NCBI GenBank assembly: GCA_016190205.1
Contig: JACPQZ010000006.1
Location: 1 to 13,102 of the forward strand
Direction of reading: 5' to 3'
From: Candidatus Omnitrophota bacterium
Lineage (GTDB): Bacteria; Omnitrophota; JACPQZ01
DNA length: 13,102 bases
The notes below the pieces were generated by a model. That model ran no database searches and was not told where the DNA came from. It was given only the letters and a program-made list of their open reading frames with translations. The position numbers and the translations under genes were made by a program. This document shows, piece after piece, positions 1-13,102 of the stretch. How positions within the stretch are numbered: the first letter of the stretch is position 1; each line of letters starts with the position of its first letter.

Positions 1-5
1 TATGA

Positions 6-337
6 CATCCGTGATTCGTGATTCGTGAAACGTAGTTGACGGCTTGAGTAACCAGAAACCAGCAACCAGATACCAGAAGATTCCAGAGACCAGATACCAG
101 AGTGAAAAGATGAAATCCAAAGCTTGAAATTCGAAGCACGAAGCAAATTCGAATGACCGAAATTCAAAATTCGAAAACGGTTGTTTTGAATTTCTGATTT
201 CGAATTTCTAACTTGCTTCGAATTTCGATCTTCGAATTTCGTATTCTTTCTGGTTTCTGGCATCTGGTATCTTCTGGTTACTGGTATCTGGTATCTGGTT
301 TCTTTTTTTCACGATTCACGATCCACGATTCATGCTA
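6..337. repeat. Three-layer nested inverted array of 7-bp repeats downstream of rpsG
   Basis: No gene is visible here; nearly all of the gap is one large imperfect palindrome centred near base 180. Outer layer: GATTCGT-type heptads at 13-33 face CACGATT-type heptads at 310-337. Middle layer: ACCAGAT-type heptads at 51-106 face CTGGTAT-type heptads at 250-301. Inner layer: AAATTCG-type heptads at 124-180 face TTTCGAA-type heptads at 184-243. Each right arm is the degenerate reverse complement of its left arm, and the 7-base period is kept in all three with only occasional slips. The array ends just after the rpsG stop codon and would lie between rpsG and the expected fusA. It could act as an RNA hairpin at the rpsG 3' end, but no U-tract follows it on the minus strand, so I do not call a terminator. 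Confidence 0.88.
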
Positions 338-338
338 C

Positions 339-806
339 TCACCATTTGTAATGGCTGAACGCCCGATTGGCTTCCGCCATCTTATGCACGTCTTCGCGCT
401 TCTTAACCGCAGCGCCCGTCCGCCCAAAGGCGTCGGCAAGCTCGTTTGCCAGCTTCTCCTCCATGGGCCTTCCCTTCTTGGCGCGGGCGAAGTCACGCAT
501 CCAGCGGAGGGCGAGGCTCACCCCCCGGTCCTCGCGCACATCTATGGGAACCTGGTAGGTAGCTCCGCCTACTCGCCGGGACTTCACCTCCAGGAGGGGT
601 CGGGCATGATCCACGGCCTGCTGCAAAACCTCCAGGGGTTCCTTATTCACCTTCTTGGCCGCTCCCTGGATCGCCTTGTACACGATCCGCTCGGCCTTGG
701 ATTTCTTGCCCTGAATCATAATGACGTTGACAAAACGCGTGACCAGTACACTATGGTAAATAGGGTCTGCGATAAGCTGCCTGCGGACTGCGCGGTCGCG
801 TCTCAT
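339..806 (-). CDS. rpsG: 30S ribosomal protein S7
   Basis: Encodes 155 residues, the usual length for S7, the primary 16S rRNA binder that organises the 30S head and borders the E site. The N-terminal region with FVNVIM followed by [11 protein letters not shown], the central [11 protein letters not shown], and the C-terminal [20 protein letters not shown] are family hallmarks. The ATG at 806 overlaps the rpsL stop as ATGA, and an AGAGG inside the rpsL end lies 5 nt upstream, so translation should be coupled to S12. In E. coli S7 is the autoregulator of this str operon and acts near the rpsL-rpsG junction. With a 4-nt overlap there is no intergenic leader here, so any such control would have to use coding RNA. 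The stop is TGA, followed within a few bases by the large heptad palindrome. Confidence 0.98.
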
Positions 807-1174
807 TTAGGCCTCTTGGCTCCGTATTTTGAGCGGGATCGTCTGCGCTGCTGTACCCCAGCCGAATCCAGAATCCCGCGAATAATGTGATAGCGGACAC
901 CCGGAAGATCTTTTACGCGCCCCCCCCGGACCAGCACGATAGAGTGCTCCTGCAGATTATGCCCCTCGCCCGGGATGTAGGCCGTCACCTCCATGCCGTT
1001 CGTGAGCCGGACGCGGGCCACCTTGCGCAGGGCGCTGTTGGGTTTCTTGGGGGTCTGCGTCTTTACCTGTAGACACACGCCCCGCTTCTGGGGGTTACCC
1101 GTCAAGGCCGGAGCCTTGGTCCTCTTAAACTGCTTCTCCCTCCCAAAACGCACGAGTTGGTTTATCGTTGGCAT
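803..1174 (-). CDS. rpsL: 30S ribosomal protein S12
   Basis: Encodes 123 residues, full length for S12, the decoding-centre protein of the small subunit. PQKRGVC near residue 30, [12 protein letters not shown] at 41-52 and [14 protein letters not shown] at 83-96 are the signature blocks. Lys43/Lys44 and Lys88 occupy the positions where streptomycin-resistance changes arise in other bacteria, and these residues look wild type. Asp89 is the conserved residue that RimO modifies in many species. The start at 1174 is ATG with GAGG six bases upstream (1181-1184). The gene follows rpoC after a 104-bp gap filled by a heptad hairpin, and its stop overlaps the rpsG start. The order rpoC-rpsL-rpsG is the common bacterial arrangement in which the rif and str clusters are fused. 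Confidence 0.98.
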
Positions 1175-1196
1175 CCGATTCCTCTAGCAACCTTTC

Positions 1197-1259
1197 ATCG
1201 GGTTTCGGGTCTCGGGGATCGGGTCTCGAAACCCTATACCCGAAACCCGATACCCGAGA
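1197..1259. repeat. Inverted 7-bp repeat array between rpoC and rpsL
   Basis: Nine consecutive 7-base units run in phase. The left half (1197-1231) is of ATCGGGT/TTCGGGT type and the right half (1232-1259) is its reverse complement, CCCGAAA/CCCGATA type. A perfect 14-bp inverted repeat pairs 1197-1210 with 1238-1251, and a shorter GGGT/ACCC hairpin sits at the centre. The array begins about 20 nt after the rpoC stop on the minus strand and ends 22 nt before the rpsL start, leaving the rpsL ribosome-binding site free. No U-run follows it in the transcribed direction. It may stabilise or mark the junction between the rpoC and rpsL messages; that role is inferred. Confidence 0.88.
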
Positions 1260-1278
1260 TTCGCTTTACGGATCATGT

Positions 1279-4200
1279 TCACTGACCTTCCTCGGGCGGC
1301 GCCTCTGTCTTCACCTGCGCGGCTTGCTCCTCGGGATTAAGATCCGGGTCTTGCGTGTTTTCCGCCTCACTCGCGGCAGCCTGCTTGACGAGCAGTGCCG
1401 GTTCTACGACCTTCATCATCTCGATGTTCCGGTGGGCATGGAAACCTGTCCCCGCCGGGATAAGGTGTCCCATGATCACGTTTTCCTTAAGGCCCACGAG
1501 ATCGTCTCTTCGTCCGCTCGCCGCCGCATCGGTCAGGATGCGGGTAGTTTCCTGAAAGCTTGCGGCCGAAATAAAGCTCTCCGTGGTCAAGGAAGCCTTC
1601 GTGATACCCAAAAGGACAGGCGCAGCGCTCGCCGGCCTTTTGCCTTTCTTCACAAGCTCCTGATTGACTTCCTCAAACCGGAAGTGGTCCACCTGCATGC
1701 CCACGAGGAAATCCGAATCAGCCGGGTCTTCGATCTTTACCTTGCGCAACATCTGACGGACGATGACCTCAATATGCTTGTCATTGATCTTGACGCCCTG
1801 CAGGCGGTACACCTCCTGGACCTCGTTCACCAGATATTCCTGCAGTTTCTTCGCCCCGCTCACATGCAGGATATCCTGCAACACGATCGGGCCGTCTACC
1901 AAAGGCTCCCCCGCCTGGACCTGATCTCCCTTGTACACATTGAGATGCTTCCCGTGCGGGATGAGATACTTTTTCTGCATGCCGGTGGAGGAGGTTACGA
2001 TAATCTGGCGCTGGCCCTTGAGCTCTTCTCCAAACTCCACCGTGCCATCTATCTCAGTAATCAAGGCGGGGTTTTTAGGCCGTCTCGCCTCGAAGAGCTC
2101 CGCCACACGCGGGAGACCTCCTGTGATGTCGCGCGTCTTAGCAATCTTGCGGGGCGTCTTGGCCACCAGTGTGCCCTGGGTGACCGCCTGCCCATCCTTA
2201 ACCACAATATGCGCCCCCGGCGGGATGGGGTAGAACGCGATGATTTCATCTCCCTCGCCCAAGATGACGATCTGCGGGTGGAGGTCTTCTTTGTGCTCCA
2301 CGATCACGCGTTCGGTTAACCCCGTGGTCGCATCGAGCTCCTCACGCATCGTGACGCCTTCTCTGACATCTTCGAGCCGGACGCGCCCGTCCACCTCCGT
2401 CAGAATCGGCACCGTGTAAGGGTCCCAACGCACGATCATCTGACCCTTTTCGATCGTCGTCCCGTCTTCCGCACTCAAGAGGGCCCCGGAGGGGATGGTA
2501 TGGCTCTCCAGCTCGCGGCCGTCCTCGTCATGCAAGGTGACCTGGCCATTCCTGTTCAATACCACAATCTCATCGCTCTTTGTCTTGACGATTTTCAAGT
2601 TGTGGTACTTGAGTGTCCCGGCATTCTTGGTTTTGATATAAGACTGCTCCACGACCCGGGACGCCGTGCCGCCGATGTGGAAGGTCCGCATGGTGAGCTG
2701 TGTCCCAGGCTCGCCGATCGACTGCGCCGCAATGATGCCGACGGCGTGCCCCAACTCGACCAACCGCCCCGTCGCGAGATCCGTCCCGTAACAGCGGGCG
2801 CACGCCCCCTGGCGTGATTCGCAGGTCAAGACGCTCCGGATCCGTATCTTTTCGATCCCCGCCTCCTCGATCGCATCGGCCGTCTTGGCCGTGATTTCCT
2901 CTCCGGCCTTTGCAAGCACGCTGTCCGTGATCACATGAACCACATTATCCAGGGCGATGCGGCCCACGATACGTTCCTTGAGGCTCACGACCACATCATC
3001 GCCTTCCACAATGGCTTCTACGGTGATGCCGTTCACCGTGCCACAGTCTATTTGGTGAATAATGACGTCCTGGGCAACATCCACGAGTCTACGCGTAAGA
3101 TATCCCGAATCGGCGGTCTTTAAGGCGGTGTCGGCGAGACCCTTGCGCGCACCGTGGGTGGAGATAAAGTACTCGAGTACCGTCAGCCCCTCTCTAAAGT
3201 TCGCGAGGATGGGGCTCTCGATAATTTCGCCGGAAGGCTTGGCCATAAGACCGCGCATGCCCGCCAGCTGACGGATCTGTTGTTTGGAACCCCGTGCCCC
3301 GGAATCGGCCATCATGAAGATCGGGTTAAACGACTCGAAATCCTCGAACATCTGATCGGCCACCTGATCCGTGGTGCGTGTCCAGATATCTATGACCTTG
3401 TTGTACCGCTCGCCATCTGTGATCAGGCCCCGCTTATACTGGGATTCGATCGCCGCCACCTCCTTGCGCGCTTCTGCGAGGAATTCCTTCTTGAGTTCCG
3501 GAATTCTCATGTCATCCAGGCTGATGGAAATCCCTGCGCGGGTAGCCTCCTCAAAACCCAGTTTCTTGAGATCATCCAGGAGCTGGACCACACGGGCGTG
3601 ACCCAGCCGCTCGTAACAGCTGGAGATGACCTTGCTCAAGCGGCCTTTGTCAACCGCCTCATTGACATAGGGAAGTTCCGGCGGCAGGATCTGGTTGAAA
3701 AAAACCCGGCCCGGTGTAGTCTGAATCATCTCACCCCTGATGCGCACCTTAACGCGCGCGTGCAGCTCTACCTCGTCGTCCTGATAGGCGGTGACTACCT
3801 CGTCGGGATCGGAAAATACGATCCCCTCCCCGCGCCCGCCCGCTTTTTCCTTCGTCAGATAATAACAGCCGAGGACAATATCCTGGCTTGGGGTCGCTAC
3901 AGGCTGGCCGTTGGCCGGTGAAAATATATTGGTCGTCGACATCATGAGGATCCGGGCCTCGAGCTGCGCCTCATTGGACAGCGGCACGTGCACGGCCATT
4001 TGGTCGCCATCAAAATCGGCGTTAAAACCGGCGCAGACGAGGGGGTGAATGCGTATGGCCTTGCCCTCGATCAGCAAAGGTTCAAAGGCCTGGATACCCA
4101 GCCGGTGCAGGGTGGGTGCCCGGTTCAAGAGGACCGGATGGCCCTTGATGACTTCCTCCAGGATATCCCACACCTCGGGTTTGACGCGCTCCACCATCTT

Positions 4201-5367
4201 TTTCGCGCTGCGGATGGTGTGGACATGCCCCTGCTCCTTGAGCTTTTTGATGATGAAGGGTTCGAAGAGCTCGAGGGCCATCTTTTTGGGAAGGCCGCAC
4301 TGATAGAGCTTGAGTTCCGGGCCGATCACGATCACGCTGCGCCCTGAATAATCCACGCGCTTTCCCAGGAGATTCTGCCGGAAGCGGCCCTGCTTGCCCT
4401 TGAGCATATCGCTCAAGGACTTGAGCGGCCGGTTGCCCGGACCCACGACAGGGCGCCCGTGACGGCCGTTGTCAAACAGGGCGTCCACCGCTTCCTGAAG
4501 CATCCGCTTTTCATTGCGAATAATCACCTCGGGGGCCTTAAGCTCAATAAGCTTTTTCAGCCGGTTGTTGCGATTGATTACCCGGCGGTAAAGGTCATTT
4601 AAGTCGCTGGTAGCAAAACGGCCTCCGTCGAGAGCGACGAGAGGCCGAAGATCCGGAGGGATGACCGGTACGACGTCTAAAATCATCCATTCGGAACGGT
4701 TCCCGGACTTCCGGAAGGAATCCACGATCTTCAAGGTCTTCACAGCCCGGAGCTTAGACTGCTTGGATTTGGAGTTCGCGATGGTGGCATTGAGCTGCTT
4801 GACCATCTTCTCGAGATCTACCTCGCCCAGGAGTTCCTTGATGGCCTCGGCCCCCATGAGGGCCTTAAACTTACCGCCGTACTGGTCCACGGCCTTCTGG
4901 TGCTCATCCTCCGTCATGAGGTCCTTCTTACGGAGCGGGGTCTCGCCTGGATCGACCACAATATATTCCTCATAATAAAGCACCTTTTCCAGGGCGCGCA
5001 CGGATAGGTCCAGCAGATTTCCGATCCGCGACGGCATGGCCTTGAAGAACCAGATGTGGGAGACAGGGGTGGCGAGGTCTATGTGGCCCATGCGCTCGCG
5101 CCGGACCTTGGACTGCGTGACTTCCACTCCGCAGCGATCGCAGACGATACCCTTGTGTTTGATGCGCTTGTACTTTCCGCAATTGCATTCCCAGTCACGG
5201 GTAGGCCCGAATATCTTCTCGCAGAAGAGCCCGTTCTTTTCCGGCTTGAACGTCCGGTAGTTAATCGTCTCAGGCTTCTTAACCTCCCCCCGCGACCACG
5301 TCCGGATGACGTCAGGGGAAGCGATGCGGATGCTGACCGAATCAAATATGTTGATGTCGTAATCCAT
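1279..5367 (-). CDS. rpoC: DNA-directed RNA polymerase subunit beta'
   Basis: Encodes 1362 residues, the catalytic clamp subunit of RNA polymerase. The N-terminal zinc site is C61-x-C63 with C76-x2-C79. The Mg-binding motif NADFDGDQM lies at 449-457 with the three catalytic aspartates D451, D453 and D455. The bridge helix spans about 733-767. The second zinc site is C775 with C849, C856 and C859. The trigger-loop region follows at about 882-900. A segment of roughly 200 residues after about 915 interrupts the trigger loop with sandwich-barrel-like repeats, resembling the SI3 insertion of Gram-negative polymerases. The acidic tail after residue about 1325 is low complexity. The ATG at 5367 is 15 nt after the rpoB stop with GGGGGAA seven bases upstream, so rpoB and rpoC form one message. 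No frameshift or missing active-site residue was seen. Confidence 0.99.
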
Positions 5368-5382
5368 GAATGGCTTCCCCCG

Positions 5383-8300
5383 TTATGACTTGCCCGACAA
5401 CAATTCTTCCACCCGGGCCTTACGTTCTTCCGAGGTCTCCGGGCGGGGCTCGGCGGCCTTGATACGTTCTCTCTCGTGTGCCGGGCTCGCGTGCTTTTTC
5501 TCGGGTTGGATATCCAGCGCAAGGCTCTGCAGTTCCTTGACCAAGACGTTAAACGATTCCGGGGTCCCGGGCTGAAGCGCATTCTCTCCCTTTACAATCG
5601 CTTCGTAGATCCTCGTGCGTCCCGTCACATCATCGCTCTTGACGGTCAGGAGTTCCTGCAAGCAATAAGCCGCGCCATACGCCTCGAGCGCCCAGACCTC
5701 CATTTCGCCGAACCGCTGACCTCCAAACTGGGCCTTGCCGCCCAACGGCTGCTGCGTCACCAGGGAATACGGTCCGATACTCCTCGCATGAATCTTGTCA
5801 TCCACCAGGTGCGCAAGTTTCATCATATACAGGTACCCCACCGTCACCTTCTGATCGAACTGAACGCCCGTGCACCCGTCCCTCAATGTGATCTTTCCGT
5901 CTTCAGGGAGATGGGCCTTCTTCAACAGCTCCTTGATTTGACCCTCCTCCACGCCGTCAAACACGGGGCTTGAGACCTTAAACCCGAGGGCCTTGGCAGC
6001 CCATCCCAGGTGGGTCTCCAGAATCTGGCCCACATTCATACGGGAGGGAACGCCCAAGGGGTTTAAGACCATATCCACCGCCGTACCGTCAGGCAGGTAG
6101 GGCATATCCTCTTCCGGCAGGATCTTGGCGATAACCCCTTTGTTGCCGTGGCGGCCCGCCATTTTGTCGCCCACCGAGAGCTTCTGCTTGCTGACCACAT
6201 AGACCAGTACCCTTTTGAGCACGCCCGGCGGAAGCTCATCCCCCCGCTTGAGCCGCTCGACTTCCTTTTCTTCCTCTTCGATCAACTCCTGGATCGAATC
6301 GTCCCAGATGCGCGCGACCTTAGCAATCTCGATCTCCAGAGTGGGGTTGCCTTCAATCTTGATACTTTGAAAATCGCAGTTTGTAATTTTTTTCACAAGG
6401 GCCCGGGTGATCGCACGGCCCGCGGCGATCAGCACCTCTCCGGTCTCTGCATCCAGCAGGCTGTCTCCCGGTTTCTGCCCGATCAGCATGGAAGAAATCT
6501 TGTTCAACCGCTCCTCCTGCAGCTTGCGGATGCGGATCCTGTATTGATTGCGCAGCTTTTCAATTTGAATAAGCTCGGTCTTGCGCTCGTCCGTGCTCTT
6601 GGGTTTAATCCCCCTGCGGCTAAAAACCTTCACATCAACGACAATCCCCTCGACGCCCGGAGGGACCGTGAGGGAGGTATCCCGCACATCACCGGCCTTC
6701 TCGCCAAAGATGGCCCGCAGGAGTTTTTCTTCGGGCGACAGCTCCGTCTCGCTCTTGGGCGTGACCTTCCCCACCAGGATGTCTCCGGGACCCACCTCGG
6801 CCCCGATGCGTACAATACCGTCCTCATCCAGGTCCTTGAGGGCGTCTTCCCCCACGTTGGGGATGTCGCGGGTCAGTTCCTCATTGCCGAGCTTCGTATC
6901 CCTGGCCTCCACCTCAAACTCTTCGATATGGATGGATGTGTATACATCGTCCTTGATGAGCCTCTGGCTGATCAGGATCGCGTCTTCAAAGTTATAGCCG
7001 CGCCACGGCATGAAAGCGACAAGCACGCTGCGACCGAGGGCCAGCTCCCCGTCCTTCGTCGCGGCGCCGTCCGCCAAGACCGCCCCCTTCTCCACCTTTT
7101 GGCCGGGTTTGACCGTGGGCCTCTGATTGAGACAGGTGCCCGCGTTGGAACGCACAAACTTGCGCAGTTGCATCACGTGAGTCCCGATGGCAATAGAGGA
7201 TGCGTCCACCTCCTTGATGACCCCGCTCACGGGGGCAAGCACCATGACCCCTGAGTCGCGGGCGGTGGGGCCCTCCATGCCCGTTCCGATCAAGGGCGGT
7301 TCCGTCTCCATGAGCGGGACAGCCTGGCGCTGCATGTTGGATCCCATGAGTGCGCGGTTGGCGTCGTCGTGCTCGAGGAAAGGGATAAGACTCGCCGCGA
7401 CGCTGACCAGCTGCTTGGGACTCACATCCATATAATGGACTTCCTGGGGTTTCACCTTGGGGAAGTCGCCGCGATAGCGCGAGCTCACAGCCTCATCCAC
7501 AAAATTCCCCTTTGCGTCCAGGCGGGAATTTGCCTGGGCAATGACGTATTGATCTTCCACATCCGCAGACAGGTAATCAATTTTGTCCGTCACCCTCCCG
7601 CCCGTCACCTTCCGATAGGGCGTCTCCAGAAATCCGAACTCGTTGACGCGCGCGTAAGTGGAGAGTGACGCGATGAGTCCGATATTGGGACCTTCCGGCG
7701 TCTCGATGGGGCACAGCCGGCCGTAGTGCGAGGGGTGAACGTCGCGCACCTCAAAACCCGCCCGCTCACGGGAGAGCCCACCCGGCCCGAGGGCTGAAAG
7801 GCGCCGCTTATGCGTGAGCTCCGCCAGGGGATTTGTCTGATCCATAAACTGTGAAAGCTGGCTGCGCCCGAAGAAATCCCGAATCGTGGACGAAACGAGT
7901 TTGGAATTCACCAGGTTATGCGGCATGCAGGATTCGATGTCGTAGATCGACATGCGTTCCACGACCGAACGGTACATGCGCGCGAGACCTATCCGGAATT
8001 GATTTTGAAGAAGTTCCCCGACCGAGCGCACGCGCCGGTTGCCAAGGTGATCGATGTCATCCGGACGCACCTGGCCGTCCTTGCATTTGATAAGTTGTTT
8101 GATGACGGCCACGAGGTCCTCGAGCCGGAGGATCCGCTCATCCAGTGAGGTCTTGAGGTCGAGCTTGCGGCTCATGACATACCGGCCCACGCGGCCCAGG
8201 TCATATCGCTGGGCGTCCTGAAACAGGCGCTTGATAAGGCCCTGCGCGTTATCCTTCGTAGGAGGATCCCCGGGGCGCAGGCGCCTGTAAATACCCATGA

Positions 8301-9198
8301 GGGCGTCTTCCTGGGAGAGATGCGGATCCTTTCTCATGGTGGCGAGTATGGAAGGCTCGAGTTCTTCTCCGGCCACCACATCAATCGTTTTGAGCCCCGA
8401 TGAACGTATCTGTTTAATCACGGTGGGCGTAATCTTTTCGCGGGATGGGATCGTCACCTGGCCCGTTTCCTTGTCGCGGATCTCCAAGGCCAGGACACGG
8501 CCCAACAGCATCTTGTCAGACACGCGCGCCAGATTGAGGGTCTCTACCCCGTAGAAGGCCTCGATGATCTGGCGGTCGGTGGAAAGCCCCATGGCCCGCA
8601 AGAGGGTGGTCGCCAGGAGCTTTCTGCGCCGGTCAATAAAGACATACAACACATCCGTAAGATCAAACTCCAACTCCAGCCATGCCCCGCGATAGGGAAT
8701 CACGCGGGCCGAAAAAAGCTTCGCCCCATTGGGATGAAGGCCCACCTCCATACTCACCCCAGGCGACCGATGAAGCTGGCTCACCACCACCCGCTCGGCC
8801 CCATTAATAATGAAGGTGCCGTTTTGCGTCATGAGCGGGAGGTCTCCGAGATACACCTCCTGCTCGCGCGTCGCGTTCTTGTGAACGAGCCGGAGCCGGA
8901 CCTTGAGAGGCGCCGCATAGGTCATGCCTCTCTTCTGGCATTCCTCAATGGAGTATTTCGGCCGGGCCAGGGTGTAGGTGATATACTCGAGCCGGCAGGT
9001 GCCGTCGTAACTCGTGATGGGAAAAACCTCGCTGAATACCTCCTGCAGACCCTTGTTCTCCCGTTTCGCCTTCGGCACATCCATCTGCAGAAACTGCTGA
9101 TACGAGTCCACCTGAATCTCAACGAGGTTCGGCAGGGGCATCACTTCAGGAAGCCGCCCGAAGTGAACCCGGCCACCAGCCATGTTAGCTTTAACCAA
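5383..9198 (-). CDS. rpoB: DNA-directed RNA polymerase subunit beta
   Basis: Encodes 1271 residues, shorter than the 1342 of E. coli, consistent with smaller lineage-specific insertions. The rifampicin-binding region is intact: SQFMDQ at 449-454 and [13 protein letters not shown] at 462-474, with the usual sensitive residues D453, H463 and S468. [14 protein letters not shown] follows at about 496-509. Near the C-terminus, [14 protein letters not shown] and the later [24 protein letters not shown] are the universally conserved active-site and clamp-contact blocks. The best start is TTG at 9198, because AAGGAG (9208-9213) stands nine bases ahead of it. The next in-frame ATG, at 9183, is 24 bases from that SD and would give a protein five residues shorter. 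The gene follows rplL across a gap carrying a heptad hairpin and is transcribed with rpoC. Confidence 0.98.
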
Positions 9199-9207
9199 GT
9201 GATTTAT

Positions 9208-9213
9208 CTCCTT
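9208..9213 (-). promoter_or_regulatory. Shine-Dalgarno supporting the TTG start of rpoB
   Basis: AAGGAG on the minus strand, nine bases before TTG at 9198 and 24 bases before the first ATG at 9183. The spacing favours the TTG. It lies 13 nt clear of the upstream heptad array, so a folded array would not cover it. Confidence 0.75.
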
Positions 9214-9226
9214 AAGATATTTGCCT

Positions 9227-9321
9227 GTCGCTAGTCGCTAGATGCTAGATGCTAGTCGCTGGCAAAATAGGACCGTTCATAACGATTGACGAAGTTTTTG
9301 TTTGCTAGCGACCAGCGACTG
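9227..9321. repeat. Inverted 7-bp repeat array between rplL and rpoB
   Basis: Five in-phase heptads of GTCGCTA/GATGCTA type at 9227-9261, followed by GCAAA, face a reverse-complement arm at 9301-9321 (TTTGCTA, GCGACCA type). The two are separated by a 34-nt AT-rich spacer. The near-perfect pairing is 9255-9266 with 9301-9312. In the transcribed direction the array starts about 8 nt after the rplL stop. In E. coli the corresponding gap carries an attenuator and an RNase III site that lower rpoBC expression relative to the ribosomal proteins; this hairpin sits in the same place, but a matching role is only inference. Confidence 0.87.
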
Positions 9322-9328
9322 ATTTTAG

Positions 9329-9886
9329 TTACTTCAGTTCGACCGTCGCGCCAGCCGCCTCAAGCTTCTTCTTCATCTCCTCGGCCTCTTTCTTGGGAAC
9401 CCCATCCTTCACGGGCTTTGGACACGCGTCCACAAGGTCCTTGGCCTCCTTGAGGCCCAGGGTGGTCATGGAGCGGATTTCCTTAATGACCTGGATCTTC
9501 TTGTCCCCTGACTTGGTCAGCACAACGGTGAAGCTGTCCTTCTCCTCCGCTTGCGCCCCCGGAGCCGCCGCTGCGTGCGCCCCCGGAGCCGCCGCCAGCA
9601 CAGGAGCCGCCGCCGTCACCCCAAACTTCTTTTCCAGGGCCTTCACGAATTCAGCCAATTCCAACACCGTCATCTTCTCAATGCTGGAAATCAAATCCTG
9701 GAGCTTCTGAGACACCTTGGTACCTCCTCCAAAAACCTGCCTAGCCTCCTGCGCGGCCTCTTCTTTGTGAGGAACCTGCCCGGGGTGCTGGCCACCCTTC
9801 TCGCCAGCAGACGCCGGCCGGGCCTTGACCTCCGCGCCCTTCTCTTTTTCCTTCGCCGTAAGTTCCTGTTCGACTGACATGGTCAT
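9329..9886 (-). CDS. rplL: 50S ribosomal protein L7/L12 with an N-terminal extension
   Basis: The long form is 185 residues, starting at ATG 9886 behind GGAGG (9891-9895). A second in-frame start, GTG at 9715, has the stronger GGAGGAGGT six bases upstream and gives 128 residues, the normal size of L7/L12, the multimeric stalk protein that recruits translation GTPases. The canonical part has the dimerisation and L10-binding N-terminal domain ([19 protein letters not shown]), an Ala/Pro-rich hinge and the C-terminal factor-binding domain ([20 protein letters not shown]). The extra 57 residues are rich in Lys, Glu, Ala and Gly and have no recognised fold. Their third codon positions are GC-rich like the rest of the gene, so the extension looks translated rather than accidental. 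I list the long form and regard both starts as usable. The next ATG upstream in frame lies inside the repeat array and has no SD. Confidence 0.9.
9552..9599. repeat. 24-bp tandem duplication encoding the L7/L12 hinge
   Basis: Two adjacent 24-bp units, 9552-9575 and 9576-9599, share their first 20 bases exactly. They encode the repeated Ala-Pro-Gly-Ala element of the flexible hinge of rplL. The unit is eight codons, so the frame is kept. Confidence 0.8.
9716..9730 (-). promoter_or_regulatory. Internal ribosome-binding site for the canonical L7/L12 start
   Basis: GGAGGAGGT on the minus strand (9722-9730) plus a 6-nt spacer precede GTG at 9715. It lies inside the long rplL reading frame, where it is read as Phe-Gly-Gly-Gly-Thr. 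It is a stronger match to the anti-SD than the upstream site and marks exactly where L7/L12 proteins normally begin. Confidence 0.7.
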
Positions 9887-9906
9887 GTATCCTCCATAAT
9901 GACAGT

Positions 9907-10152
9907 GTTCGTACTGCGTACTGCGTACTGCGTACTGCGTTGTGCGTAATGAAATACGCGGATGACGTTTGTGCAATGTGCAAGGTGCTATGTGCTATGA
10001 GAAAAATGCCGGAGCCAACTGATCTACCTCAACTACATTGCACTTTGAACTTTGCACGATCCGTGCACCCCACCCAAGCAGCTGACGCCGGAAGAAAGCT
10101 ACCCGACTAGACGCAGTACGCTGTACGCAGTACGCTGTACGAATCACGCTTC
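9907..10152. repeat. Composite heptad-repeat element, copy 1 (between rplJ and rplL)
   Basis: Outer left arm: four GTACTGC units at 9911-9938 plus two degenerate ones. Inner left arm: GTGCAAT-type units at 9971-9998. A non-repetitive core follows at 9999-10036. Inner right arm: ATTGCAC/TTTGCAC units at 10037-10057. A 53-nt spacer at 10058-10110 precedes the outer right arm, ACGCAGT/ACGCTGT units from 10111, which runs through the rplJ stop codon at 10144-10146. It aligns along its whole length with the second copy at 12764-12988; the core is 36/38 identical and the 53-nt spacer 40/53. The copies differ in the number and order of outer heptads. It accounts for nearly all of the unusually long rplJ-rplL gap of 257 bp. 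Confidence 0.9.
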
Positions 10153-10668
10153 ACTCGCGCGCTTCGCTTGCAAGGCACCCAATGTTCCAACAAGATTACG
10201 TATCAGTGCATTCAGCGTACCCACCACGCCGTACAGAGGGGCCTGAACCTGGCCCAGCACCTTCGCGATCAGTTCCTCCCGCGAGGGGAGCGCCGCCACA
10301 TGCTTTACAGTCTCCGTATTCCAAATCTCACCATACGCATAGGCCCCATGTATGATGAACCCCTCGTTCTCCTTCGCGAAATTGACCAGGACCTGTGAAA
10401 TCAGCTCCGGATTTCCCTTCCCGATGGTGAGGGCCGACGGGCCCTTCAGCAGGTCCGATACGGAGTCTAAGTGGGCGCCCTTGAAGACCTTTCTCGCGAT
10501 GGCATTCTTAACGACCAGGAAGCGGGCCGACTTCTGCTGCAATTTCCTGCGTAAGCCCCCCACGACCGCCACAGGCAAACCCTGGTAGCCGGTTACAAAA
10601 AGAGAATCGTTTCCGGAAAGCTGTCGGGAAAGTTCCTTCCCCATGGCCTCCTTAACGGGAGAGCTCAC
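10144..10668 (-). CDS. rplJ: 50S ribosomal protein L10
   Basis: Encodes 174 residues of L10, which anchors L7/L12 dimers to 23S rRNA at the stalk base. Recognisable features are the FVTGYQGL block near the N-terminus, the KNAIARKVF region, and the C-terminal helix (EELIAKVLGQVQAPLYGVVGTLNALIRNLVGTL region) that binds L7/L12. I choose GTG at 10668. It overlaps the rplA stop as GTGA and has GGAGGG (10676-10681) seven bases upstream. A TTG 15 bases further upstream (10683) keeps the frame open but lacks a properly spaced SD. The last codons and the stop lie in a heptad array, so the extreme C-terminus (Ser-Glu-Ala) may derive from repeat sequence. There is no free leader before rplJ, where an L10/L7-L12 autogenous control site is usually found. 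Confidence 0.97.
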   Translation of the reverse strand: MSSPVKEAMGKELSRQLSGNDSLFVTGYQGLPVAVVGGLRRKLQQKSARFLVVKNAIARKVFKGAHLDSVSDLLKGPSALTIGKGNPELISQVLVNFAKENEGFIIHGAYAYGEIWNTETVKHVAALPSREELIAKVLGQVQAPLYGVVGTLNALIRNLVGTLGALQAKRASEA

Positions 10669-11369
10669 GCCTGTTCCCTCCAAGGCCCTGCATCCAGTTC
10701 AACACCAGGTCCCATGGTGGTAGCCAGGGCAACCGACTCAAGATAAATTCCCTTTGCCGCCGCCGGGCGCGCGGCCGTCACGGCATCAATGACCGCCCGG
10801 GCGTTGGCGATGAGGCTTTCCTCATCGAAGGAGATCTTGCCGACCCCCACGTGAATCCCAGCCTGCTTGTCCGTCTTAAACTCCAGCCTTCCGGCCTTAA
10901 GCTCCTTAACCGCCTTAGCGACATCCGGTGTCACCGTGCCTGTCTTCGGATTGGGCATGAGCCCCTTGGGACCGAGCACTCGACCCAGCTTTGCCAGCTC
11001 GCGCATGAGTTCGGGATGGGCAACGGCCACGTCAAAATCGGCCCAGCCCTGCTCCACCTTTGCGATGAGCTCTTCCGCACCTACTGCGTCGGCACCCGCC
11101 AGTTCCGCCAGTCTCGCGACCTCACCTTTAGCAAAAACAATAACCCTCACCTTTTTCCCGCTGCCATGCGGCAGACCCACGGTTCCACGGACCATCTGAC
11201 CGGGCGCCTCGGGATTAACCCCTAATTTGAAGGATATCTCCACCGTTTCATCAAACTTAGGCTTGGGATATTTCTTCAGGGTGGCAATGGCCTCCTGAAG
11301 CGAATAAACCTTTCCGGGCTCAAGACATTTCAACGCTTCCTGATACCTCTTGCCGCGCTTCATCTTCAT
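10665..11369 (-). CDS. rplA: 50S ribosomal protein L1
   Basis: Encodes 234 residues, the usual size for L1, the mobile stalk protein next to the E site that also represses its own operon in many bacteria. The two-domain protein carries the signature [15 protein letters not shown] at 133-147, and the C-terminal half resumes domain I with [17 protein letters not shown] at 11369 overlaps the rplK stop as ATGA and has GAGGT six bases upstream within rplK. This predicts strict coupling of L11 and L1 synthesis. The TGA stop overlaps the rplJ start, so rplK, rplA and rplJ form one continuous translational chain. Confidence 0.98.
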
Positions 11370-11791
11370 GGAGCGACCTCGATCCCCATGCTCCGCGCCG
11401 TACCCTCTATAATCCTGACCGCCCGGTCCAAGTCGGTGGTGTTTAAATCTTGAAGCTTTTCGCTCGCGATCCGGCGGACATCCTCCCGGCTCACTTTGCC
11501 AATCTTCGTTTTATTGGGCTCGCCCGAGGCCTTGGCAATCCCACAAGCCTTCTTGAGGAGGACAGCGGCGGGCGGGCTCTTAATAATAAAGGAAAAGGAC
11601 CTGTCCTCATAGCACGTGATAATGGCTGGGACGATCATGCCCGCGCCCTGCTTGGTCTTCTCATTGAAGGCCTTGCAAAACTCCATGATGTTTACCCCCT
11701 GCTGGCCGAGGGCAGGCCCTACGGGAGGGGCGGGGTTCGCCTGACCTGATGGAATCTGCAACTTGACTATACCCTTAATTTTTTTGGCCAT
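11366..11791 (-). CDS. rplK: 50S ribosomal protein L11
   Basis: Encodes 141 residues, exactly the common L11 length. L11 binds the GTPase-associated region of 23S rRNA and takes part in factor binding and the stringent response. The proline-rich N-terminal domain ([20 protein letters not shown], residues 12-31) is the thiostrepton-contact region. The C-terminal RNA-binding domain includes [17 protein letters not shown]. The start is ATG at 11791. The 20 bases before it contain no convincing SD, unlike all its neighbours. The heptad array ends only about 15 nt upstream, so translation may rely on an unusual leader. In other bacteria L1 represses this operon at a site just ahead of rplK; I could not identify such a site here. 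Confidence 0.98.
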
Positions 11792-11805
11792 ATTCAGTCT
11801 ACGAA

Positions 11806-11886
11806 GGACGTTGGTCGTTGGACGTGGGACGTTTCGTCCCTCATCCTTCGTCCCACTTCCTTCCTCCTACGTCCCACGTCCCACGT
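11806..11886. repeat. Inverted 7-bp repeat array between nusG and rplK
   Basis: Eleven consecutive heptads keep perfect phase from 11806 to 11882, with four more bases of a twelfth. The left arm is GGACGTT/GGTCGTT type (11806-11833) and the right arm TCGTCCC/ACGTCCC type (11834-11886). The centre is a perfect hairpin: GGGACG at 11826-11831, a TTT loop, and CGTCCC at 11835-11840. In the transcribed direction the array starts about 11 nt after the nusG stop and ends about 14 nt before the rplK start. It therefore fills the rplK leader, where an L1 operator and an SD would be expected. Confidence 0.9.
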
Positions 11887-11897
11887 AACATCAGTTA

Positions 11898-12425
11898 TCA
11901 CAGCTTCTCTACTTGCCAGTACTCGAGTTCAAGCGGAGTGGCCCGGCCGAATATGGAGACCATGACCTTTAATTTGCCCTTGGCGGGGTTTACTTCCTCG
12001 ATCGTCCCATTGAAATTTATGAAGGGTCCTTCCTTGACCCTTACGCCCTCGCCCTTCTCAAATACCACCTTGGGCTGCGGCTTATTCTGTTTATCCTCGG
12101 CCTGCTTTAAGAGGGTCTCGACCTCGCTCTCCTTGAGCGGGATCGGCTGATTGCCGGAACCCACGAATCCCGTCACCCCCGGGATGCTTTTCACCAGATA
12201 CCACGTGTCGTCCGAAAGCTCCATCTCCACGATGACATAACCCGGAAAGTTTTTGCGCTGTGAGATCGTCTTTCTGCCTTCGCGGATCTCCGATACCCGT
12301 TCCGTGGAGATAAGGACCTGGCTCACCTTTTCGGCCAGGCCTTCTTCCTTGGCCCGCCGCTCGAGGGCCATCTTGACCCGATTCTCGTGTCCCGTCTGGG
12401 TGTGAATCACATACCACTGTCTCAT
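11898..12425 (-). CDS. nusG: Transcription termination/antitermination factor NusG
   Basis: Encodes 175 residues. NusG binds the RNA polymerase clamp, suppresses pausing, and links polymerase to Rho or to ribosomal S10. The NGN domain (about 1-105) opens with QWYVIHTQTGHENRV and contains the FPGYVIVEMEL strand and VKSIPGVTGFVGSGNQPIPL. The KOW domain spans about 125-175 (GEGVRVKEGPF, then a FNGTIEEVNP turn). There is no extra domain between them. ATG at 12425 follows the secE TAA directly with no intervening base; only a weak AATAGGT stands upstream, so coupling to secE is likely. The gene is followed by a heptad hairpin before rplK. Confidence 0.98.
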   Translation of the reverse strand: MRQWYVIHTQTGHENRVKMALERRAKEEGLAEKVSQVLISTERVSEIREGRKTISQRKNFPGYVIVEMELSDDTWYLVKSIPGVTGFVGSGNQPIPLKESEVETLLKQAEDKQNKPQPKVVFEKGEGVRVKEGPFINFNGTIEEVNPAKGKLKVMVSIFGRATPLELEYWQVEKL

Positions 12426-12614
12426 TTAAGAACCTATTAGAAAGCCCACGACCCTCGACAGAACCAAATCACAGATACCTATAAACACCGCCAACAAGAA
12501 CGTAGCCGCAATCACAACAACGGTTGAGGCGACAAGCTCTTCCCGCGTCGACCACGAGACCTTCTTCAGTTCTCCCCGTACTTCCTGTACGAACCCGATT
12601 GCTCTGTTTGGCAT
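12426..12614 (-). CDS. secE: Preprotein translocase subunit SecE
   Basis: Encodes 62 residues, the short single-span type of SecE that clamps the SecY channel in the inner membrane. The amphipathic cytosolic helix carries the family motif ELKKVSWSTREEL (15-27), and one hydrophobic segment spans about 28-50. E. coli SecE has two extra spans; this lacks them, as most bacterial SecE proteins do. ATG at 12614 has GAGGA immediately before it and GGAG eleven bases before it. It lies 53 bp downstream of tRNA-Trp and abuts nusG. A rpmG (L33) gene, common between tuf and secE in other genomes, is absent here. Confidence 0.95.
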   Translation of the reverse strand: MPNRAIGFVQEVRGELKKVSWSTREELVASTVVVIAATFLLAVFIGICDLVLSRVVGFLIGS

Positions 12615-12639
12615 TCCTCACTGTTCTCCAAAAACGTCC

Positions 12640-12654
12640 AGGGTTCGAATCCCT
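12640..12654. other. T-arm-like hairpin just downstream of tRNA-Trp
   Basis: AGGG, TTCGAAT, CCCT on the plus strand forms a 4-bp stem with a perfect T-loop sequence, oriented opposite to tRNA-Trp and 13 nt past its 3' end. A 14-bp stretch here (12641-12654) is the exact reverse complement of 12677-12690 inside the tRNA T-arm. On the minus strand it is followed after a few bases by TTTTT. It may be a relic of a second tRNA or of an inverted tRNA end, or a chance hairpin. Confidence 0.5.
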
Positions 12655-12667
12655 AAACAACTCTAAA

Positions 12668-12742
12668 CAGGCCAGGAGGGATTCGAACCCCCAACATGCG
12701 GTTTTGGAGACCGCCGCTCTAGCCGATTGGAGCTACTGGCCT
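12668..12742 (-). tRNA. trpT: tRNA-Trp (anticodon CCA)
   Basis: The 75-nt cloverleaf closes fully. The acceptor stem AGGCCAG pairs with CTGGCCT, with discriminator G. The D-stem is GCTC/GAGC. The anticodon stem GCGGT/ACCGC encloses loop CTCCAAA, giving anticodon CCA. The T-stem GGGGG/CCCTC has T-loop TTCGAAT. The CCA end is not encoded; TTT follows the discriminator. A tRNA-Trp between tuf and secE is a widely conserved arrangement. Confidence 0.97.
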
Positions 12743-12763
12743 CGTCATCCTCTAAATAGCACG

Positions 12764-12988
12764 GTTCGTACTGCGTACTGCGTTGTGCGTACTGCGTAAC
12801 GAAGTACGGAGATAATGTTTGCGCAATGTGCAAAGTGCTATGTGCAATGAGAAAAATGCCGGAGCCGACTGATCCACCTCAACTACATTGCACTCTGAAC
12901 TTTGCACTTTGCACAGACCAAGTACTCCACTCAAGCGACGGACGCCCGAAGAAAGCTACCCGACTGGACGCTGTACGCTGTACGCTTC
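12764..12988. repeat. Composite heptad-repeat element, copy 2 (between tuf and tRNA-Trp)
   Basis: Same architecture as the copy at 9907-10152. Outer left GTACTGC units run from 12768 to 12802 with one GTTGTGC variant inside. Inner left GTGCAAA-type units lie at 12821-12848, the core at 12849-12886, inner right TTTGCAC-type units at 12887-12914, a 53-nt spacer at 12915-12967, and outer right ACGCTGT/ACGCTTC units at 12968-12988. The tuf stop codon (12987-12989) overlaps the last heptad. No gene is visible in this 244-bp gap. Confidence 0.9.
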
Positions 12989-13102
12989 ACGCGATGATTT
13001 CACTGACTACCCCGGCCCCCACGGTGTGGCCGCCTTCGCGGATGGCGAAGCGCACTTCCTTTTCCATGGCGATGGGGGCGATGAGCTCGATCTCGAGGTC
13101 GA
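12987..13102 (-). CDS. tuf: Elongation factor Tu, C-terminal end (partial)
   Basis: Only the last 38 codons and the stop lie in the window; the 5' end continues past base 13102. The visible peptide, ending in [20 protein letters not shown], is the closing strand pair of EF-Tu domain III, the part that with domain II contacts aminoacyl-tRNA. The upstream [13 protein letters not shown] segment matches the same family. EF-Tu delivers aminoacyl-tRNA to the ribosome as a GTPase, but the GTPase domain is outside the window. The TGA stop sits in the last heptad of the downstream repeat element. Position ahead of tRNA-Trp and secE is typical for one tuf copy; whether the genome has a second cannot be told here. 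Confidence 0.97.

Follow-up and report, generated by a model that had tools for sequence, protein, structure and literature searches.

The intergenic gaps of a ribosomal protein and RNA polymerase operon from a Candidatus Omnitrophota bacterium (assembly GCA_016190205.1, contig JACPQZ010000006.1, positions 1 to 13,102; this whole stretch of 13,102 nucleotides is called the window) are filled by tandem arrays of seven-nucleotide words, or heptads, together with their reverse complements. The arrays are probably copies of mosaic, hairpin-forming interspersed repeat elements with a high turnover, which have expanded by slippage of one heptad at a time. The source is a contig of a metagenome-assembled genome of 1.65 Mb that is 93% complete.

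All six gaps are intergenic, and seven is the best autocorrelation lag in each of them, with values between 0.40 and 0.60 compared to a lag-7 autocorrelation of 0.24 in coding sequence. The lag-7 autocorrelation, its z score against dinucleotide shuffles, and the z score of single-strand folding against shuffles are 0.57, 12.5, and -15.2 in gap 1 (1-338), 0.55, 6.3, and -5.1 in gap 2 (1175-1278), 0.40, 3.6, and -3.8 in gap 3 (9199-9328), which is the weakest of the six, 0.47, 8.0, and -9.0 in gap 4 (9887-10143), 0.60, 7.3, and -3.0 in gap 5 (11792-11897), and 0.44, 6.6, and -3.6 in gap 6 (12743-12986). Gap 1 is predicted to fold into one nested hairpin of -152.8 kcal/mol. Tandem Repeats Finder recovers the period-7 arrays in the gaps, and an inverted partner is present in every gap, as the first-pass annotation had described. 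Its remark that the short and overlapping junctions are free of arrays also holds for the gap between secE and the tRNA (12615-12667) and for the overlapping junctions. The only known structured RNA found by an Rfam scan of the window is tRNA-Trp.

The genome-wide figures rest on a sample of 573 kb of the source genome, in which open reading frame (ORF) starts were trimmed out of arrays and runs of N were excluded from the coverage counts. Period-7 arrays make up 13.0% of the intergenic and 0.23% of the coding bases, while the periods 5, 6, 8, 9, and 10 account for 0-0.14% of the intergenic bases. A stricter threshold leaves 121 period-7 segments, compared to at most two at any other tested period. 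Clustering by word divides the 199 array pieces into 35 groups, the largest being ACCAG (43 pieces), CGTGAAT (26), and GTACTGC (25), whereas a largest cluster of about 9 would be expected for random words of the same composition. Neighbouring arrays of the same word form 42 inverted pairs, and one convergent polarity is found in 33 of the 34 pairs belonging to word families with at least two of them. The 24 "direct" same-word pairs are mostly fragments of a single array. The first-pass annotation had tied its reading to such arrays recurring outside the window, and lag-7 arrays are indeed abundant across the rest of the genome and in several relatives. An assembly artefact can be ruled out because arrays are present in many independent genomes and in named isolates. 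One contig end (L089:16874-17001) and one contig start (L099:1-90) carry the same heptad array (CCCGAGA, AGACTAC), and the arrays therefore probably break the assembly.

The words had been thought to differ completely from gap to gap, but gaps 4 and 6 share theirs, and the elements of gaps 1 and 4 have copies elsewhere in the genome. The shared words of gaps 4 and 6 are explained by paralogy: both are copies of one element, with a mean column identity of 86% and two clean 7-nt indels inside the heptad runs. A third copy is located at L165:12180-12414 (79%). Gap 1 has further copies as well, including L165:6349-6700 (76% over 354 bp). An outer CGTGAAT module and a spacer are common to four copies (gap 1, L151, L154, and L165), which differ in their inner part. 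In the ACCAG family, 15 arm pairs in A-to-B orientation were found, with two distinct arm types and conserved position-specific spacer letters, as expected for the dispersed copies with terminal inverted repeats of miniature inverted-repeat transposable elements (MITEs). The arms usually consist of four heptads, a step of 10 or 11 nucleotides, and three heptads (consensus of arm A: AACCAGATACCAGTTACCAGTAACCAGAAGATACCAGATACCAGAAACCAG), and their length varies by single heptads to 6, 7, 8, or 10. The inner part of the elements is variable and contains either TTCGAA heptads and a GGCGGATCCGCC module or unrelated sequence. In three elements (L096:10566-10835, L100:54-328, and L165:6382-6656) there is an inner GC-rich palindrome, GGCGGATCCGCCTCGGGCGG, which resembles a repetitive extragenic palindrome (REP) and is absent from the window copy.

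The source genome contains the layout motif ACCAGAAGAWACCAG 29 times, and four of the 269 other genomes of the phylum contain it once each, while bare runs of the ACCAG word are present in 16 of 285 genomes and are abundant in a few distant families. Therefore, the element is lineage-specific but the word is recurrent. The ACCAG pattern read backwards (GACCAWW), used as a control, also forms arrays in a few genomes of the phylum (G220, G219, G143, and G127) and is thus a further heptad word that the control revealed by chance. Spread of the ACCAG element by phages or plasmids was considered and rejected: there is no phage match, and the plasmid matches, in Klebsiella and Citrobacter, extend over only 51 bp at 84% and probably represent an unrelated array. 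In the Klebsiella plasmid CP067450.1 (IncFIB/IncHI1B; L225:2501-2555), the match is unannotated and lies between a gene for a hok-type toxin and a hypothetical one, and such matches occur at several places per plasmid.

The shared multi-module architecture of the dispersed copies argues against a de novo origin of each array in its own gap by 7-nt slippage combined with fold-back or template-switch synthesis. Such a local origin would fit the strict period, the one-heptad indels, and the occurrence of the same words in unrelated lineages and of different words in orthologous gaps. It would also fit the L165 array, which starts on the very TGA that ends the upstream gene (L165:6349-6380, TGAATCG TGAAGCG TGAAGCG). 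However, the arms have not been homogenised. At variable columns, the A and B arms of one element agree at 0.34 and those of different elements at 0.39 (permutation p 0.99), while the agreement is 0.65 among A arms and 0.72 among B arms, each arm type keeping its own letters, and most ACCAG heptads have a fixed A/T difference between A and B arms. Because the arms of one element agree no better, no copying between them has taken place since the family dispersed, and the earlier suggestion that one arm was made from the other by fold-back or template switching is not supported. We regard a separate origin in every gap as improbable. It is unlikely to be the main process, although local slippage or fold-back may have given rise to founder arrays. 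The slippage part of this explanation reportedly resembles that of Mrazek 2007.

The search for a congener of the source genome gave none, and turnover was therefore compared in relatives outside the window's own lineage (genus g8 and the genomes G004, G014, and G017). The flanks in G007 and G013 of genus g8 are 96-97% identical, yet their orthologous gaps often have unrelated content. For example, the gap at L135:4854 contains AGGCTTC/GCTTGTG heptads in G007, ACAGTTT/CTGTTAT heptads in G013, and AATTATC heptads in G010, and the gap at L135:8723 contains a palindromic MITE-like repeat, GGTTATT heptads, and TTTGCTA heptads, respectively. Ten orthologous gaps have an array in one or both of the compared genomes, and the identity is below 0.75 in seven of them, compared to a median of 0.90 in array-free gaps. 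Reading the orthologous gaps of G004, G014, and G017 from the sequences, one word was kept (GTACGGC) and one changed. Some orthologous gaps are merely empty or short in the sister species. The MITE-like palindrome of genus g8 appears to be inserted at a start codon in G007 (L185:5610-5841, compared to L193), where the 9 bp ATGAAAGTA, which contain the ATG, are directly duplicated; other copies also end in ATTGAATG, forming the start codon. The common generating process proposed in the first-pass annotation is thus supported in part, by the one period throughout the genome, the word differences between sister species at orthologous gaps, and the whole-heptad indels between copies. However, the words were not made gap by gap, and most arrays belong to dispersed families.

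Of the 147 co-directional gaps, 59 contain arrays, compared to 10 of the 42 divergent and 2 of the 33 convergent ones (Fisher p 2e-4 for non-convergent versus convergent). The convergent case in the window results from a gene-call error, and the second one is doubtful. Between co-directional genes, the arrays extend from about 3 bp past the stop codon to about 15 bp ahead of the next start, there is no significant bias toward the start over the stop in longer gaps, and elements occur in both orientations relative to transcription. The near absence from convergent gaps and the tight fit between stop and start would be expected if intercistronic RNA hairpins were selected as such, for mRNA processing, stability, or translational insulation, with their sequence being free and the words turning over. 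In addition, 56% of the array gaps of the source genome have a folding z score below -2 compared to 16% of the array-free gaps. Replaced gaps with unrelated sequence mostly fold better than shuffles in both sister species, the replacement often being another hairpin element, and the hairpin character therefore often survives the replacement. However, hairpins are common but not universal among the array gaps: nearly half of these lack a strong one, the arms show no co-variation, and the empty or short orthologous gaps in sister species do not fit either. Moreover, hairpin selection alone leaves the 7-nt period unexplained. As an explanation in its own right it seems unlikely, but it is compatible with mosaic elements, for which it would provide the reason for being kept. 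It is very hard to imagine that the arrays are transcription terminators or attenuators. They are hairpins between genes, but the window is not enriched in terminator-like sites over shuffles, none of the sites listed overlaps an array, and the arrays avoid convergent gaps and do not have the pattern of intrinsic terminators, a GC-rich stem with a T run that is also present between convergent genes.

By analogy with plasmid pSM19035, whose omega/ParB protein binds WATCACW heptads, each heptad could be the binding site of a DNA-binding protein. The parS sites of this plasmid resemble the source arrays in consisting of contiguous, unspaced 7-bp units with a 5-bp core between A/T positions, in direct and inverted orientation, and at least four contiguous heptads are required for full activity (PMC9499535). 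The core of the ACCAG heptads is better conserved than the last two positions, and 47% of the changes are A/T swaps. However, most other words lack such a clean A/T-only degeneracy, and while pSM19035 is one plasmid system with one word, the 20-35 different words of the source genome would require many readers. The words are also replaced between sister species. Furthermore, the source genome (93% complete) has no match to Omega_Repress (PF07764), the known heptad-binding family, or to RHH_1 (PF01402), which speaks against the heptad-reading protein that had been suggested from the window. We therefore give this possibility little credit.

In the sequence around rpoB of 80 named genomes, strict period-7 segments are present in nine, nearly all of them outside called ORFs, and several form inverted pairs (for example Lentisphaerae L055:10971, Acidobacteria L057:14386, Mucilaginibacter L064:13800). 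The periods 6, 9, 12, and 15 also yield many segments in these genomes when all sequence including coding is counted, and an exclusive period 7 is therefore not claimed for all bacteria. The IMG/VR viral contigs L215, L218, L220, and L204 contain as many as 17 heptad arrays within 13 kb, with words such as CAGTGAT and its relatives, and these arrays are mostly intergenic; L215, L218, and L220 have sequence in common. It is conceivable, though rather doubtful, that concentric heptad hairpins are written into the gaps between co-transcribed genes, in many bacterial phyla and in some phages, by a genetic element of an undescribed class or by an undescribed enzymatic generator. In that case, the machinery rather than the sequence would fix the 7-nt step, and the same words would therefore be expected in unrelated lineages and differing orthologous gaps in sister species.

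The module of the mosaic elements is a short heptad array, typically with a 5-nt core and two looser positions that are often A/T, and is usually paired with a convergent reverse complement with which it can form a hairpin. Modules nest concentrically (CGTGAAT around ACCAG around TTCGAA) and are exchanged between elements. Heptads are gained and lost singly, presumably through slipped-strand synthesis, polymerase slippage being the presumable source of the 7-nt step. Whole elements are probably copied into co-directional gaps, perhaps by a route like that of mobile elements, and are soon replaced, leaving unrelated words in the same gap of sister species. Selection would retain elements between the stop codon and the ribosome-binding site, perhaps via the RNA hairpin. 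Several observations weigh against this scenario. The analysis turned up no transposase for a heptad element, nor any target-site duplication or clean empty site, although an autonomous transposon with the same ends was not systematically searched for. Most sister-species comparisons reveal heptad arrays that are replaced and not cleanly inserted, and gap 3 has no copy in the 573 kb sample. The ACCAG word also appears in distant families and in viral contigs with other layouts, which copying within a genome does not explain. Because nearly half of the array gaps fold little better than expected, many arrays are one-armed. Finally, the gene calls follow a simple ORF rule, and arrays are touched by several ORFs that are misplaced. 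A REP-associated tyrosine transposase (RAYT/Y1) was considered as driver and rejected: G017 has arrays without a Y1_Tnp match, while the 14 kb sample of G012, which has six Y1_Tnp matches, contains no strict array.

The genes of the window, assigned with Pfam and ARAGORN, form a minus-strand operon that reaches from rpsG to tRNA-Trp and is followed by a next gene. This gene, beyond gap 6 and adjoining the tRNA-Trp side, is probably tuf. Genes and array elements are listed in the table.

Table. Genes of the operon and heptad elements in its gaps.
Feature	Position	Strand	Assignment or composition
rpsG (S7)	339..806	-	Pfam PF00177
rpsL (S12)	803..1174	-	Pfam PF00164
rpoC	1279..5367	-	Pfam RNA_pol_Rpb1 domains
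rpoB	5383..9198	-	Pfam RNA_pol_Rpb2 domains
rplL (L7/L12)	9329..9880	-	Pfam PF00542
rplJ (L10)	10144..10677	-	Pfam PF00466
rplA (L1)	10665..11369	-	Pfam PF00687
rplK (L11)	11366..11791	-	Pfam PF00298
nusG	11898..12425	-	Pfam PF02357
secE	12426..12614	-	Pfam PF00584
tRNA-Trp	12668..12742	-	ARAGORN, Rfam
Gap 1 composite	10..332		concentric modules CGTGATT (10-32 / 308-332), ACCAG arms B and A (49-103 / 248-301), TTCGAA (124-178 / 185-245)
ACCAG arm B in gap 1	49..103	+	4 heptads + step + 3 heptads
ACCAG arm A in gap 1	248..301	-	4 heptads + 10-nt step + 3 heptads
Gap 2 (rpoC-rpsL)	1198..1257		CGGGTTT / CCCGAAA inverted heptads
Gap 3 (rplL-rpoB)	9227..9321		GTCGCTA array 9227-9260 and short inverted partner 9303-9321
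Gap 4 (rplJ-rplL) composite	9910..10141		outer GTACTGC / ACGCAGT, inner GTGCAAT / TTGCACT
Gap 5 (nusG-rplK)	11806..11886		GGACGTT / CGTCCCA inverted heptads
Gap 6 (next gene to tRNA-Trp) composite	12767..12986		second copy of gap 4 element

Short tandemly repeated repetitive sequences and heptanucleotide long simple sequence repeats (Calothrix, Nostoc, Mrazek 2007, Beggiatoaceae) are, like the arrays of the source genome, unspaced 7-nt tandem repeats that are intergenic and enriched over other lengths. Copy-number variation by whole units is likewise seen in the source genome, in the indels between gaps 4 and 6 and in the ACCAG arm lengths. However, those repeats consist of one or few words in mainly direct orientation, while the source genome contains about 35 words that are mostly mirrored, nested, and combined into multi-module elements. 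In general, heptamer repeats are a known over-represented class that is little explained (PMC4679880; PMC4692102). The Beggiatoaceae word TAACTGA forms 169 direct sets and one indirect set, near start codons and in ribosomal protein operons (PMC4679880). In Xanthomonas, the word GGGAATC forms 186 arrays in Xcc, with 70 cases in which two convergent sites lie close together and form inverted repeats, and positions 1-4 and 6 are conserved (PMC4692102). Inverted convergent heptamer pairs are thus found in both systems, but GGGAATC is a single G-rich word with quadruplex potential, and concentric multi-word elements have not been described for it (PMC4692102). The P6b stem of the Nostoc tRNA-Leu(UAA) intron is built from the heptad motifs TDNGATT or NNTGAGT, with units of 7 nt gained and lost on one side of the stem or on both, and the motif classes have replaced one another independently and repeatedly (PMC4476775). 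Its complementary heptads and class replacement are like those of the source genome but are confined to one intron locus. Bacterial interspersed mosaic elements (BIMEs), REPs, and MITEs are, like the heptad elements, dispersed, non-coding, palindromic, intergenic mosaics of modules. The source elements differ in being built of heptad arrays, in lacking a linked RAYT pattern, their presence not tracking a Y1_Tnp gene, and in being almost absent from convergent gaps, and no target duplication was seen for the heptad arrays. A search of the open-access full-text literature returned no account of concentric multi-word heptad elements filling operon gaps. While heptamer repeats and inverted heptamer pairs were already known, the concentric mosaic form, the load, and the word replacement are new.

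The over-representation of 7-nt repeats between bacterial genes has been noted for years and explained only by a guess at polymerase slippage. Their origin, spread, and function now become testable, because sister species present their gaps before and after replacement, and because the ACCAG family offers a well-defined element whose arms are known. The intergenic sequence between essential operon genes can be replaced in full while the gene order persists, and the swapping of words in closely related species offers a handle on why bacteria favour repeats of seven bases.

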